35,559 nucleotides of DNA from Candidatus Nitrotoga sp. BS. Its GTDB lineage: Bacteria; Pseudomonadota; Gammaproteobacteria; Burkholderiales; Gallionellaceae. The notes under the pieces were generated by a model. That model saw only the letters and a program-made list of their open reading frames with translations, made no database searches and was not told the origin of the DNA. This document shows, in pieces, positions 17,268-21,505 of this stretch. The stretch spans positions 1 through 35,559 of the forward strand of contig NZ_CAKMLL010000071.1 of NCBI RefSeq assembly GCF_927797785.1, in the 5' to 3' direction. Made by a program: the position numbers and the translations under genes. Each line of letters opens with the position of its first letter. Within the stretch, counting starts at the first letter, position 1.

Positions 17268-17328
17268 GGATATGTTCGCCACAACCGATAAACTTCGTTG
17301 TTGAATCCGCAGAGCTATAGATTCGCCT

Positions 17329-17805
17329 ATGTGCAATAAGAATACCCTGGCGTTCCCTACATATTCACATTATTTGTGGGCGTTGAGTTTACTTTTCTTG
17401 CTTCGTGTAATCGGTCAGCTGACTCAGCGACTTAACTCTGTTTCGTGGCTTCCCCCGCTTGAAGTATGGCAAGGAAGTTCTCTGCCTTATGGACTCATGC
17501 TCACTAGTCAAATAATCATTTTAGCTGTCATGATACGCATAACACGCAAACACGCGGCGGATTGCGTTCAAAAGAATCCAATCAAGGGTAAATGGCTGCT
17601 GACTTTGGGAGCATTGTATTTTTTCAGCATGTCAGCTCGGCTTGTAATAGGTTTTGCGAATCTTTCCACGCTTCCATGGTTTCATAAGTCACTTCCCGCC
17701 TTTTTCCATCTGGTGTTGGCTACTTTTGTCTTGTCACTTGCGGCATTCCACATGGATTGGATATGCAAGAATAATAAACTCGATGTGAGTGAGGGTTTGC
17801 AATGA
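17329..17805 (+). CDS. Small polytopic membrane protein, first gene of the GH3 cluster
   Basis: I do not recognise this 158-residue family. It has four hydrophobic helices (about 14-31, 55-72, 88-110 and 122-143) joined by short polar loops, with Arg residues near the helix ends (LLRVIGQLTQR; MIRITRKHAAD) and no cysteine pair or metal motif. It is an inner-membrane protein. Its TGA overlaps the ATG of the fatty-acid-hydroxylase-like gene (ATGA), so the two are translated together, and all four genes of the cluster are chained this way. A subunit, flippase-like or anchoring role for the hydroxylase is inference. The gene begins 61 bases after prmC. No separate promoter is evident, so read-through from hemA is possible. 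Confidence 0.7.
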   Translation: MCNKNTLAFPTYSHYLWALSLLFLLRVIGQLTQRLNSVSWLPPLEVWQGSSLPYGLMLTSQIIILAVMIRITRKHAADCVQKNPIKGKWLLTLGALYFFSMSARLVIGFANLSTLPWFHKSLPAFFHLVLATFVLSLAAFHMDWICKNNKLDVSEGLQ

Positions 17806-18698
17806 ATGAAAAGACGATGAATTATTTGATTTATCCTGCCGTTGTTTCATTGGCTGTCGGAATATATGCATTTTCAAGCGGTCATGGAGGCAATCTTCTC
17901 ATCAGTGCCTTCGGAGCAGTTGTGCTTGGAGCAATGTTGATTGCAGTGTTTGAACAAATCGTACCTTATCAACTGAAGTGGCGACCAAGGCCACAAGATG
18001 TGAAAGATGATTTACTCTACACAATCTTTATACAAATTGCAGTCCCCAAGCTGTTGGGCTTTTTCATAGTATTATTGCTTGCAGATCAGGTTGGCCCGCA
18101 CGCGCCGTTTGCCGGAATTTGGCCGCGCAATTGGCCTGTCCCGGCACAGGCATTATTGTTGATTGCTAGCGCTGACTTCATGCGCTACTGGCTACATCGC
18201 CTGTCACATACTGCACCAGTTATGTGGCGACTGCATGCGGTGCATCATTCGACCGACCGGCTCTATTGGCTCAATACCAGCCGCTTTCATCCTATCGAAA
18301 AAATATTCCATTTCACACTGGATTCGTTGCCATTCATTTTGATGGGTGTTGATCCACATGTGATTGGATTCTGGTTTGTGTTGTATTCGGTTAACGGTTT
18401 CTTCCAGCATTCAAATATTCGGTTACGGTTTGGTTTGCTGAGTGGCATATTTAGCACAGCAGAACTGCATCGCTGGCACCACTCGCAGAACCCAGCCGAA
18501 TCAAATTCGAACTACGCCAATGCATTCATAATCTGGGACCGTCTCTTTGGCACATACTCTCGTCCCACTAGCGAAGTGGGTACGCTGGGGCTATTGAATC
18601 CTGAATACCCTATGGGCATCATTCAACAAATGAAGGCTCCGTTTGTAAATGAGCTCTATAGACACAATGCATCTTCGCAACAGAAAATAAATGATTGA
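17802..18698 (+). CDS. Sterol desaturase/fatty acid hydroxylase family membrane enzyme
   Basis: A 298-residue integral membrane di-iron oxygenase. The histidine clusters of the family are intact: HRLSH (132-136), HAVHH (145-149), a further His at 203 and HRWHH (223-227). The aromatic context MWRLHAVHHSTDRLYW is typical. At least four hydrophobic helices lie before and between the clusters. Members hydroxylate or desaturate lipid chains, sterols or carotenoids using O2 and an electron donor. The substrate cannot be told from sequence. The start overlaps the stop of the small membrane protein gene, and the stop overlaps the GH3 gene by eight bases. This binds it into a pathway with an acyl-amino-acid synthetase and an epimerase. 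Confidence 0.88.
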   Translation: MNEKTMNYLIYPAVVSLAVGIYAFSSGHGGNLLISAFGAVVLGAMLIAVFEQIVPYQLKWRPRPQDVKDDLLYTIFIQIAVPKLLGFFIVLLLADQVGPHAPFAGIWPRNWPVPAQALLLIASADFMRYWLHRLSHTAPVMWRLHAVHHSTDRLYWLNTSRFHPIEKIFHFTLDSLPFILMGVDPHVIGFWFVLYSVNGFFQHSNIRLRFGLLSGIFSTAELHRWHHSQNPAESNSNYANAFIIWDRLFGTYSRPTSEVGTLGLLNPEYPMGIIQQMKAPFVNELYRHNASSQQKIND

Positions 18699-20361
18699 AA
18701 ACTTGCTGGTACATGTTCTCATGTTTGGGATACGTTATACGTATTGGCGCAACTTGGTCAAATCTGCAAAAAACCCGCTTGACGTTCAGGAAAAGGTGCT
18801 GCAGGCAATACTGCGAGATAACCTAAGTACACAGTATGGAAGGACTCACAACTTCGATAAAATCTCGTCATACCATCAGTTCGCGAAACAGGTTCCCGTT
18901 ATTACTTATGAAATATTGCGGCCGTATGTGGTAAATCAACTTAGTAGCGGCATACCAGCACTTACTGCTGAACAGCCTGTCATGTATGCGACTAGCAGTG
19001 GTACAACGGGCGAGCCAAAATACGTGCCTGTCGTACGCGAAGAGCTTAAGCGGCAAAAGCGATATACAGCATTACTGACCTATTCCCAGTATGCATTTAA
19101 TCCTCTCGCGTTCAGCGGCAAAATCTGGGTAATGGCTGCATCTGCCGTGGAAGGTCGCTTCGAGAATGGAATCCCTTGGGGCTCAGCTTCTGGATTTTTG
19201 TATGCCAGCATGTCGCCAACAATTGCCAACAAATATTTGATTCCTCCTGAGGTCTTTGCGATAAAAGATAATTCACTGAAATACGATTTGATCCTGCGTC
19301 TGGCGCTTGCCGAAAATAATATCACCTATTTCAGCGCGGCAAATCCAACCACGTTGCTGCGATTATGTGCATTGGCAAACCAACAGGGCGACGTGCTGAC
19401 GGAGGATATAGAACTCGGGAGATTTAGCCGGGAAGCAGAACTGGAACGTGATGTGAGGAAAGCAATTCAAAAAATGCTGAAGCCAAACCCCAATAGAGCG
19501 GCTGAATTGCGGAGAGTATTTAATTCCGACCGGGTAGCTACATTCAGCGACCTATGGCCACACATTCGGCTTGTTTCCACTTGGACGGGTGGAAATTGCA
19601 GCGTGACCGCACGATCAGCCAGAACGCAACTTTCTACCGGGACACAGATGGTCGAACTAGGTTATCTATCCAGTGAATTCTGCGGAACGCTTACAGTGGA
19701 TTGCAACTTGCCTGCAGGTCTGCCAACCATCAGCAATTATTTTTTCGAATTTATAGAGCCAGATGAATGGGATGCCGGAAGTCGCAAGTTTCGCCTCATT
19801 CATCAGCTAGAAGCTGGGCAGGACTATTACTTGGTCATCACCACACCATCAGGTCTTTACCGTTATTTTATCAATGATATCGTCCATGCAGAGGGGGTCT
19901 ATCACAACACTCCATTGATCCGATTTGTACAAAAAGGCAAAGGCGTCACTAATATTACCGGTGAGAAACTTTATGAGAGCCAGCTAACTGAAGCGATGTC
20001 CGGAGCAGAGAAGCACCTCGACTTTCATCCGGATTTCTATCTTATGCTGGCTGACGTGGAACGGCAGACCTACCATTTATATTTGGAAGTGAATGGCATG
20101 ATGGAAAACACGGCAGAACTTGCAACATATTTAGATAATGCACTCTCCGACTTGAATATTGAGTATCGTACAAAACGTGAAAGTGGCAGGCTTCATCCGC
20201 TTGAGGTCATTTTGTTAAAGCAGGGGGCAGGCGAAAAGTATCGCGCACATTGTATTCAATCTGGCCAGAAGGATGGGCAGTTTAAAATGGTGACCTTGCA
20301 ATATGCCCATCAATGCCGGTTCCCATTTCAAACCACACAATTGGTAACTGTAGCGATATGA
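18691..20361 (+). CDS. GH3-family acyl-acid amido synthetase
   Basis: A 556-residue member of the GH3 branch of the acyl-adenylate-forming (ANL) superfamily. Plant GH3 enzymes adenylate a carboxylic acid (auxin, jasmonate) and join it to an amino acid; most bacterial members have no known substrate. The ATP-binding motif ATSSGTTGEPK is at residues 100-110. The adenylate-binding region includes MVELGYLSSEFCGTL, and the third motif is PSGLYRYFINDIV. The C-terminal cap domain follows from GKGVTNITGEKLYESQ. The N-terminus, with MFGIRYTYWRNLVKSAKNP, resembles other bacterial GH3 proteins and has no signal peptide. It overlaps its neighbours on both sides by eight and four bases. Inference: it couples a hydroxylated acyl acid made by the preceding enzyme to an amino acid. 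Confidence 0.88.
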   Translation: MIENLLVHVLMFGIRYTYWRNLVKSAKNPLDVQEKVLQAILRDNLSTQYGRTHNFDKISSYHQFAKQVPVITYEILRPYVVNQLSSGIPALTAEQPVMYATSSGTTGEPKYVPVVREELKRQKRYTALLTYSQYAFNPLAFSGKIWVMAASAVEGRFENGIPWGSASGFLYASMSPTIANKYLIPPEVFAIKDNSLKYDLILRLALAENNITYFSAANPTTLLRLCALANQQGDVLTEDIELGRFSREAELERDVRKAIQKMLKPNPNRAAELRRVFNSDRVATFSDLWPHIRLVSTWTGGNCSVTARSARTQLSTGTQMVELGYLSSEFCGTLTVDCNLPAGLPTISNYFFEFIEPDEWDAGSRKFRLIHQLEAGQDYYLVITTPSGLYRYFINDIVHAEGVYHNTPLIRFVQKGKGVTNITGEKLYESQLTEAMSGAEKHLDFHPDFYLMLADVERQTYHLYLEVNGMMENTAELATYLDNALSDLNIEYRTKRESGRLHPLEVILLKQGAGEKYRAHCIQSGQKDGQFKMVTLQYAHQCRFPFQTTQLVTVAI

Positions 20362-21464
20362 AAATCGAACGATTGGAGGCGATTTGTCTTGAAATTCCAT
20401 TCAAAACAAACTTTAAACATGCTTCGGCTGATCGCGCTAAGACTGCAAGTGTCTGGATAGAAGCCTGCTCGAATCATGGCGCGTTGATAGGCTATGGTGA
20501 AGGGTGTCCCAGAGAATATGTGACTGGCGAAAATATGAAATCCGCATTTGATTGGATCAACCGATATAAATCTACCATAGTCAATGATATTACAAATCTG
20601 GAATCGCTAAAGGCTTGGGTAGTGAAACAGGAGCAAGTGATTGATAAGGATCCTGCGGCTTGGTGCGCAATCGAGCTTGCGTTACTGGATTTGTTGGGTA
20701 AAAGTGAAGGCCTCTCGCTTGAGTCGCTGCTGTCATTGCCACCTACCCCTCCCGTTCTCAAATATTCGGCAGTATTGGGTGACAATGATTTGGCTGTATT
20801 TTCAAAGCAGGTCTCAAATTACGTGAGTGTCGGATTTCGGGATTTCAAGATCAAGCTTTCAGGCGACCTTGAAAGAGACTTGAAAAAAATTGAGTGCCTG
20901 CTTGGTACTGGGGAACCGGTGAGAATCCGTGGTGATGCAAACAACCTTTGGCGCAACCCGTTAGATGTGATCAACTACATTGACCAGTTAGGCCAGCCCT
21001 TTTGGGCAATCGAAGAGCCGCTTGTTTCGCGAGATTTTTCGGGATTGTCAAAAGTTGCTTATCGCACAGGGATAAAAATTATTCTTGATGAAAGCTTTAC
21101 TTGCGCGCAGGATATTCATGACATCAAAGATATGGCTAACCATTTTGTTCTTAATTTTCGCGTATCAAAACTGGGCGGCTTAATTCGATCCATTGCTCTC
21201 CTGAAAATTGCACGTTCTTTTGGGTTGCCGTTGATTATAGGTGCGCATGTCGGCGAAACCAGCGTTCTTTCTCGCGCCGGCATTACTTTAGCATCGGCGG
21301 CTGGTGATGCCACAGTTGCGAGGGAAGGTGCATTTGGCACTCATTTGCTCGAACATGATGTATGCGAACCTCCCGTTATGTTTGGTAACGGTGGAATGTT
21401 GCGTCCTGAAGAATGGCATTTTCAAAATGCTGCGGGGAATGGCCTTGAGATAAGGACGGAATGA
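20358..21464 (+). CDS. Dipeptide-epimerase-like enolase superfamily enzyme
   Basis: A 368-residue muconate-lactonizing-enzyme-like member of the enolase superfamily. It has the N-terminal capping domain (1-130) and a TIM barrel. Catalytic residues are visible: the KIK pair at 164-166, metal ligands Asp193 (RGDANNLW), Glu219/220 (IEEPL) and Asp244 (ILDES), and Lys271 on the opposite face (RVSKLGGL). The Lys/Lys arrangement is that of racemases/epimerases, including L-Ala-D/L-Glu epimerase and other dipeptide epimerases. I chose ATG 20358 because it overlaps the GH3 stop as ATGA and begins the family fold (MKIERLEAICLEIPF). Last gene of the coupled cluster. It likely epimerises the amino acid or dipeptide used by, or released from, the GH3 product. 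Substrate unproven. Confidence 0.87.
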   Translation: MKIERLEAICLEIPFKTNFKHASADRAKTASVWIEACSNHGALIGYGEGCPREYVTGENMKSAFDWINRYKSTIVNDITNLESLKAWVVKQEQVIDKDPAAWCAIELALLDLLGKSEGLSLESLLSLPPTPPVLKYSAVLGDNDLAVFSKQVSNYVSVGFRDFKIKLSGDLERDLKKIECLLGTGEPVRIRGDANNLWRNPLDVINYIDQLGQPFWAIEEPLVSRDFSGLSKVAYRTGIKIILDESFTCAQDIHDIKDMANHFVLNFRVSKLGGLIRSIALLKIARSFGLPLIIGAHVGETSVLSRAGITLASAAGDATVAREGAFGTHLLEHDVCEPPVMFGNGGMLRPEEWHFQNAAGNGLEIRTE

Positions 21465-21505
21465 TCAACATATAAATAACAAACTTCAATAATCCACAGC
21501 GAAAT

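Follow-up and report, generated by a model that had tools for sequence, protein, structure and literature searches.

A recurrent operon that joins a GH3 ligase, an OlsE-like hydroxylase, and an enolase-superfamily enzyme with an altered active site in Candidatus Nitrotoga sp. BS

The contig NZ_CAKMLL010000071.1 of Candidatus Nitrotoga sp. BS (assembly GCF_927797785.1) was analyzed over positions 1 to 35,559, a stretch of 35,559 nucleotides that is called the window here. It contains four coupled genes, which encode a membrane protein (MP), a membrane di-iron hydroxylase (HYD), a ligase of the GH3 family (GH3), and an enzyme of the enolase superfamily (EPI). Comparison with related loci indicates that the four genes are a true functional unit. 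The operon could be a biosynthetic module for a hydroxylated amino-lipid, in which the action of GH3 and HYD yields a hydroxylated N-acyl amino acid whose alpha-carbon is the target of EPI; we hold this reading tentatively, as plausible and somewhat short of probable. The consecutive overlaps of 4, 8, and 4 bases, reported in a first-pass annotation of this DNA, are confirmed from the sequence with the start of EPI at 20358. This start was preferred to 20313, where the mechanically called open reading frame (ORF) begins, because in the alignment the relatives start where the ATG of position 20358 lies.

A scan of genome contigs with the window GH3 as a single sequence found no relative, but a profile scan of named species genomes did find 321 relatives. 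The following analysis is on the best 80 loci by GH3 similarity. These loci carry the names of 13 phyla, with 43 loci assigned to Pseudomonadota and two without a phylum, one of which is SAR324. All except L067 are marked as metagenome-assembled genomes, and labels such as Bordetella parapertussis (L085 and L107) are therefore unreliable. All 80 loci contain HYD, which lies upstream of GH3 in all 75 that have enough upstream DNA. EPI follows GH3 directly in 69 of the 72 loci with enough downstream DNA (not in L061, L088, and L091). MP is found in 51 of the 61 loci with room on both sides, and is missing from L052, L053, L057, L065, L067, L068, L086, L088, L107, and L117. The position of MP varies: it is behind EPI in L054, L062, L070, L071, and L079, and on the opposite strand in L091 and L096. 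The operon is more than a chance arrangement, since loci of other phyla repeat its gene content and order. The proposal of the first-pass annotation that the four proteins are made together is supported by this recurring set and order; at these loci the genes are regular neighbors, not rare ones.

Among 34 GH3 loci outside the cluster that were taken as a control (14 from the family and the order, four of which are wider copies of others, and 20 planctomycete OlsH-like loci; most flanks are only about 1.5 kb), EPI or MP was found at none; one locus matched HYD weakly (47 bits), and one matched CocE (126 bits). Pairwise identities are correlated for all six protein pairs over their shared loci, with Spearman coefficients of 0.23–0.55, and every one exceeds the highest value among 499 permutations. 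The correlation is strongest for HYD-GH3 and weakest for HYD-EPI. These correlated identities support co-inheritance and are not proof of it, because shared genome descent contributes.

Gene fusions connect the members further. HYD and GH3 are encoded in one uninterrupted frame in 34 of the 80 loci, and both domains were confirmed by Pfam in the proteins of L045 and L034. On the GH3 tree of 82 rows, the fusion state changes at least six times. MP is joined to HYD in four loci: L076, L098, L109, and L045, the last of which encodes MP, HYD, and GH3 in one frame. In seven of the 80 (L050, L054, L058, L060, L062, L071, and L073), MP is fused to a CocE/NonD hydrolase, an accessory protein of Pfam Peptidase_S15, the X-Pro dipeptidyl-peptidase family; the fusion of L050 is split over two frames. 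This optional partner was not foreseen in the first-pass annotation. Its identity is given by 366–378 bits in three relatives, against the TIGR00976 cut-off of 66.3. A free gene for it is seen in L040, L042, L049, L066, L077, and L087; L056 has a piece of it where the contig ends, and L109 has broken pieces. The six complete MP-hydrolase fusions, inspected by eye, contain an extra hydrophobic stretch after a basic one, ahead of the hydrolase, and the free copies start with signal-like segments, three of them lipoprotein-like. Because of these features, the hydrolase is probably located outside the cytoplasm. These joined frames link MP with both sides of the pathway.

Some loci contain other genes close to the cluster. 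In L102 (2637–7011), a polyamine-type ABC operon is present between MP and HYD; PotA, PotB, and PotC are the best NCBIfam matches, and a binding-protein-like ORF is without a match. The same gene order is seen, by ORFs, in L099 and L116; the loci with this operon are from a few gammaproteobacterial metagenome assemblies. A phytoene-desaturase-like FAD protein, recognized by eye, is encoded on the opposite strand about 2.7 kb from the GH3 start in L093, L102, and L103.

The window GH3 contains the N-terminal, middle, and C-terminal domains of the family (Pfam GH3, GH3_M, and GH3_C), all over cut-off. Its nucleotide motifs, as defined in PMC12493201 (this and the other PMC papers are cited from excerpts), are SSGTTGEPK, YLSSE, and GLYRYFIND, and the residues S103, G104, K110, E329, G388–Y392, and D396 are kept in at least 97% of 82 rows. 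By domains and motifs it belongs to the GH3 acyl-acid amido synthetases, and amide formation is predicted. The ATP-dependent ligase named in the first-pass annotation is thus supported. Matches to plant GH3 proteins in the PDB reach 1.4e-31. Plant GH3 proteins such as GH3.15, GH3.8, and JAR1 share the domain plan and the nucleotide motifs, although they are distant from the cluster GH3 and have other gene partners.

The closest functional precedent is OlsH, a bacterial GH3 that makes N-acylornithine from a free fatty acid, ornithine, and ATP, with a preference for ornithine (PMC12493201). Bacterial GH3 substrates had been called largely unassigned in the first-pass annotation; with the OlsH product now published, the route has a precedent. 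In Singulisphaera acidiphila, OlsH is encoded with the N-methyltransferase OlsG and the O-acyltransferase OlsI (PMC12493201). That operon resembles the present cluster in its GH3 amide ligase, its small lipid operon, its lipid-modifying partners, and an alpha/beta-hydrolase-type protein, which is optional here. It differs in that the cluster GH3 is a distinct clade, the partners are HYD, EPI, and MP, and the hydrolase is a CocE/NonD protein that appears to be exported. The window GH3 scores 106 bits on the OlsH model NF052613 of NCBIfam, whose cut-off is 620, and the cut-off was exceeded in none of 10 cluster genomes. In the GH3 tree, the 82 cluster rows, the 18 planctomycete OlsH-like rows, and the 7 other rows each occupy one side of a branch, with Shimodaira–Hasegawa-like approximate likelihood ratio test (SH-aLRT) values of 98, 100, and 100, respectively. 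This is a quick tree with long branches flagged, and its 18 OlsH-like rows are not certified OlsH; the OlsH cut-off was exceeded in none of 198 planctomycete genomes. The assignment of the window GH3 as OlsH is rejected on the score and the separate clade. Three of the planctomycete OlsH-like GH3 proteins (L182, L187, and L190) are in stop-free frames of 879–1001 aa, the first 370–500 residues of which are without a Pfam match; this extra N-terminal length may be merely a stop-to-stop open frame.

HYD scores 106 bits on Pfam FA_hydroxylase. Its histidine motifs are HX3H, HX2HH, and HX2HH, and these histidines are kept in 77 or 78 of 78 rows. Its best NCBIfam match is OlsE (NF052566), nearly full-length. 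OlsE hydroxylates the ornithine part of ornithine lipids (PMC3972451 and PMC4484230). The OlsE model was matched by all 23 HYD rows scanned, the window included, and is the only NCBIfam family common to all 23. By its domain and its di-iron histidines, HYD is of the same superfamily as OlsE, which supports the lipid-type di-iron hydroxylase of the first-pass annotation. Its identification as OlsE itself is rejected, since 183 bits is under the curated cut-off of 475; fusion to GH3 in 34 of the 80 loci is another difference from OlsE.

EPI scores 87 bits on Pfam MR_MLE_C. Its AlphaFold2 model has a predicted local distance difference test (pLDDT) score of 94.6, and its best fold matches are 3jva, a dipeptide epimerase (top), and 2p88, an N-succinyl Arg/Lys racemase. 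The nearest solved relatives of a 69-row EPI profile are the same two, with 161 bits for 2p88 and 159 bits for 3jva. The residues K164, K166, D193, E219, D244, R268, and K271 are kept in all 69 rows. On sequence and model, the fold, the metal ligands D, E, and D, and the KxK motif are those of the MR/MLE group of the enolase superfamily. Enzymes of this group act by removing the alpha-proton from carboxylates that bear an amide, such as N-succinylamino acids and dipeptides (PMC8142540 and PMC5808125). The two catalytic bases of the dipeptide epimerase YkfB are K162 and K268 (PMC5808125), and N-succinylamino acid racemases also use a lysine pair (PMC8142540). In the alignment to YkfB (1jpm), K166 falls on K162, R268 falls on K268, and K271 falls on a lysine three residues later. 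Lysine stands at the place of R268 in all eight solved relatives aligned (2p88, 3jva, 1jpm, 3r0k, 3rit, 3s5s, 2opj, and 3ik4). A two-base Lys/Lys racemase is excluded for EPI by Arg268 in every row. EPI reads as an enolase-superfamily enzyme with a Lys/Arg active site. Because the second catalytic lysine is Arg268, inversion and elimination are both open. Of the earlier name, enolase-superfamily epimerase, the superfamily stands, and the epimerase function is a family guess that is not secured.

EPI shares the fold, the metal ligands, and the first catalytic lysine with 2p88 and the N-acylamino acid racemases, to which it is 21–22% identical by fold alignment. It differs from them in Arg268 and in features of its own: H21, R26, R52, and E323-G-x-x-G. 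The capping part contains H21, R26, and R52, which are the same in every row but are not found at those places in five relatives aligned; three of the five relatives carry Arg at the place of residue 24. H21, R26, and R52 may bind a second acidic group. The dipeptide epimerases 3jva and YkfB likewise share the fold, the metal ligands, and K166 with EPI, and differ at Arg268. Dipeptide epimerases contain an ammonium-binding Asp-x-Asp. The residue aligned with D318 of 3jva is not Asp in at least 68 of the 69 EPI rows, at a point where the alignment ends. The dipeptide epimerase models of NCBIfam give 64 bits against a cut-off of 500 and 27 against 343.

MP belongs to a family without a model. 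Its AlphaFold2 model has a pLDDT of 89.8 and long helices at residues 10–35, 54–76, 84–109, and 121–156, and a fold search against the PDB gave no match at E ≤ 0.001. No Pfam family was matched by the window MP, and its relatives gave only scattered weak matches, in at most 3 of 59 rows per family and with a best E-value of 0.0015. The residues F23, R26, Q30, P42, Y54, Q61, Y97, R104, and H127 are invariant in 59 rows.

The functional unit, the adenylation motifs, the di-iron histidines, the enolase metal ligands with K166, and the separate GH3 clade can be read from the sequences; for the order of steps, the acyl acid, the amino acid, the site of hydroxylation, the outcome at EPI, and the role of MP, we infer the following. 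In the cytosol, GH3 would activate a fatty acid, or a similar acyl acid, with ATP and join it to an amino acid through an amide bond, as OlsH does. By this analogy the GH3 product is most likely an N-acyl amino acid, a product class also given in the first-pass annotation. In the membrane, HYD would place a hydroxyl on either the acyl acid or the amino-acid part. Since HYD is found in one chain with GH3 in many relatives, the two would catalyze sequential steps. EPI is an alpha-proton-taking type of enzyme that adjoins GH3, so it would most simply act on the GH3 product. K166 would take the alpha-proton from the amino-acid part of the N-acyl amino acid, while Mg2+ binds the carboxylate. With the opposite side served by Arg268 or Lys271, EPI would invert the center or, less expected, eliminate a beta group; we slightly favor inversion, given the nearest relatives of EPI. 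MP might anchor the enzymes or move the product, and the CocE/NonD hydrolase, where present, might act on the outer face.

Several results weigh against the hydroxylated amino-lipid module. The lysine pair of the known racemases and epimerases is lacking in all 69 EPI rows, and EPI is matched no better by epimerase models than by synthase and cycloisomerase models, all of them below cut-off. EPI itself is absent in L061 and L088, and in L091 a fragment is found 2 kb away. GH3 and HYD are far under the cut-offs of OlsH and OlsE, and GH3 lies outside the OlsH-like clade. No CocE/NonD match was found in the genome of the window, in a search without a positive control. The clues to the head group conflict: the likeness to OlsE and OlsH, the relation to 2p88, and the polyamine-type ABC operon would favor a basic amine, and the invariant H21, R26, and R52 of EPI would favor an acidic head group. 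The authors of the OlsH study expect other amino acids for other GH3 proteins (PMC12493201).

Arg268 also bears on the leading alternative, in which EPI is a one-base synthase or dehydratase. K166 would take the alpha-proton and a beta group, perhaps the hydroxyl introduced by HYD, would leave, and the amino-acid part would become unsaturated or cyclized. The replacement of the second lysine, with K166 kept, fits this, and every one of the 69 rows gives a match to models of o-succinylbenzoate synthase and hydroxyproline dehydratase. However, these models are all below cut-off (as seen for the first row), the nearest structures are a racemase and an epimerase, and synthases of this group also keep the lysine (2opj). 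We consider this outcome unlikely, although it is the best of the alternatives.

It is slightly less probable again that the conjugate is a released signal or surfactant, not a membrane lipid. MP and the hydrolase, if exported, hint that the conjugate is handled at the membrane or beyond it, the occurrence of the cluster is patchy, and proteins of the ABC-ATPase and RND types adjoin 12 and 4 loci, respectively, in varying places and on varying strands. Against this, no exporter at a constant place was found among the neighbor families, and the cluster is spread over 13 named phyla. An acyl partner of another kind, a cyclic or isoprenoid acid (hopanoid, carotenoid, or steroid-like) hydroxylated by HYD and conjugated by GH3, appears improbable. 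It would parallel the conjugation of hormone acids by plant GH3 (PMC12493201); the cluster GH3 keeps the plant motif GLYRY where OlsH has GMWSH, and the phytoene-desaturase-like protein is near three clusters. Yet OlsE is the only NCBIfam family common to the 23 HYD rows scanned, and no such gene is seen beyond those three loci among the top 25 neighbor families. The variant closest to the first-pass annotation, in which a dipeptide is epimerized by EPI and N-acylated by GH3 to a lipodipeptide, is very improbable: 3jva is the top fold match and the second profile match, the accessory hydrolase is in Peptidase_S15, and a known dipeptide epimerase gene adjoins a dipeptidyl peptidase gene (PMC5808125), but the second base is Arg in all rows, the model scores are far below their cut-offs, and Asp-x-Asp seems absent as far as the alignment extends.

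Returning to the hydroxylated amino-lipid, a wider and more doubtful speculation is that the operon is a fourth route to bacterial amino-lipids, one that spans phyla, besides OlsBA, OlsF, and OlsHI. Membrane-bound HYD-GH3 would be combined with a new Lys/Arg enolase reaction that inverts the amino-acid part, giving a D head group, or unsaturates it, and the new four-helix MP family would link the cytosolic steps to the outer-face hydrolase. In the genome of the window, no OlsB-type protein was found: its two PF13444 matches score 16 bits against an OlsB model cut-off of 350, and no separate OlsF search was made. One of them (G000:C58:39758-40015, L158) is acyl-homoserine-lactone-synthase-like with 137 bits, below the cut-off of 250. 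The other (G000:C43:16484-16735, L157) is a PEP-CTERM/exosortase acyltransferase with 233 bits, over its cut-off.

Many bacterial GH3 proteins exist, and OlsH is the sole one assigned in the single paper found on the chemistry of the bacterial family. No paper joining GH3 with this hydroxylase and an epimerase was found among the matches listed from the openly licensed text of PMC. Through the conserved cassette and its natural fusions, the partners of one GH3 clade can be named, and a membrane protein family that lacks a model gains a context. With its changed active site, EPI would represent a function new to the enolase superfamily, probably directed at a lipid. The product can be tested for in lipid extracts from close relatives that carry or lack the cassette.

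The features of the locus are listed in Table 1. Upstream of the cluster, prfA (by eye) and prmC (by Pfam) are on the same strand; downstream, hemF (by Pfam) and purD (by eye) are on the opposite strand.

Table 1. Positions of the cluster genes and of the two junctions in the window.
Feature	Position	Strand	Description
MP	17329..17805	+	158-aa four-helix integral membrane protein without a family model
HYD	17802..18698	+	OlsE-like membrane di-iron hydroxylase (FA_hydroxylase)
GH3	18691..20361	+	GH3 acyl-acid amido synthetase (adenylating amide ligase), predicted
EPI	20358..21464	+	enolase-superfamily (MR/MLE) enzyme with an altered active site
Left junction, prmC stop to MP start	17268..17328	.	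first part is text common to the empty site of genus mates
Right junction, EPI to hemF	21465..21505	.	last part is text common to the empty site of genus mates

The G+C content of the cluster is 45.7%, compared with 53% for prfA and prmC and 50% for hemF. Because the whole left and right flanks are at 49%, composition is only a mild hint of a foreign origin. No repeats were seen by eye at the cluster junctions. A mobile-element origin was rejected: a search of plasmid proteins with GH3 gave 13 records and a search of phage proteins with EPI gave 2, all below 60% identity. The site between prmC and hemF is empty in 13 of the 18 other genomes of the genus, with a gap of 57–224 bases by tblastn ends. 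Longer pieces of G012, G016, and G018 carry hemF without an adjoining prmC, and G008 and G011 are represented by short pieces only. None of the 15 longer pieces contains a cluster gene; in G012, the cluster is on a different contig from hemF. Gain in the lineage of the window and loss in its genus mates both fit.

The occurrence is patchy among close kin. The searches covered 19 genomes of the genus, that of the window included, 158 of the family, and 399 of the order. GH3 is present in 2 of the 19. The window GH3 is matched in 5 of the 158. Three of the five belong to the cluster clade, namely those of the window, of G012 (73%), and of G109; the G109 contig starts inside GH3 and continues into EPI. 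Any match to the window GH3 is seen in 18 of the 399, and a full-length match at 40% identity or more in 8, the window included. A search of the 399 with EPI (E ≤ 1e-40) returned exactly the same 8 that hold the GH3 clade. HYD is found at E ≤ 1e-30 in 33 genomes of the order, and the nine best are the 8 cluster genomes and G239. In the seven other cluster genomes of the order, HYD is upstream in 7/7, EPI is downstream in 7/7, and MP is present in 6/7; MP is partial at the contig end in G472 and was not found in G172, a one-contig genome that may come from a strain in culture. G239 has a decayed copy of the cluster on contig C18 from about 5059 (L024:1507-3030), where MP remains together with a HYD gene interrupted by two in-frame stops and a GH3 stub of 62 residues. 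A proline-iminopeptidase-like ORF, seen by eye beside the cluster of G345, is a single case and was not used. Two family genomes, G088 and G083 (L005 and L006), encode another GH3 with 27–28% identity, followed by an ORF that is radical-SAM-like by eye.

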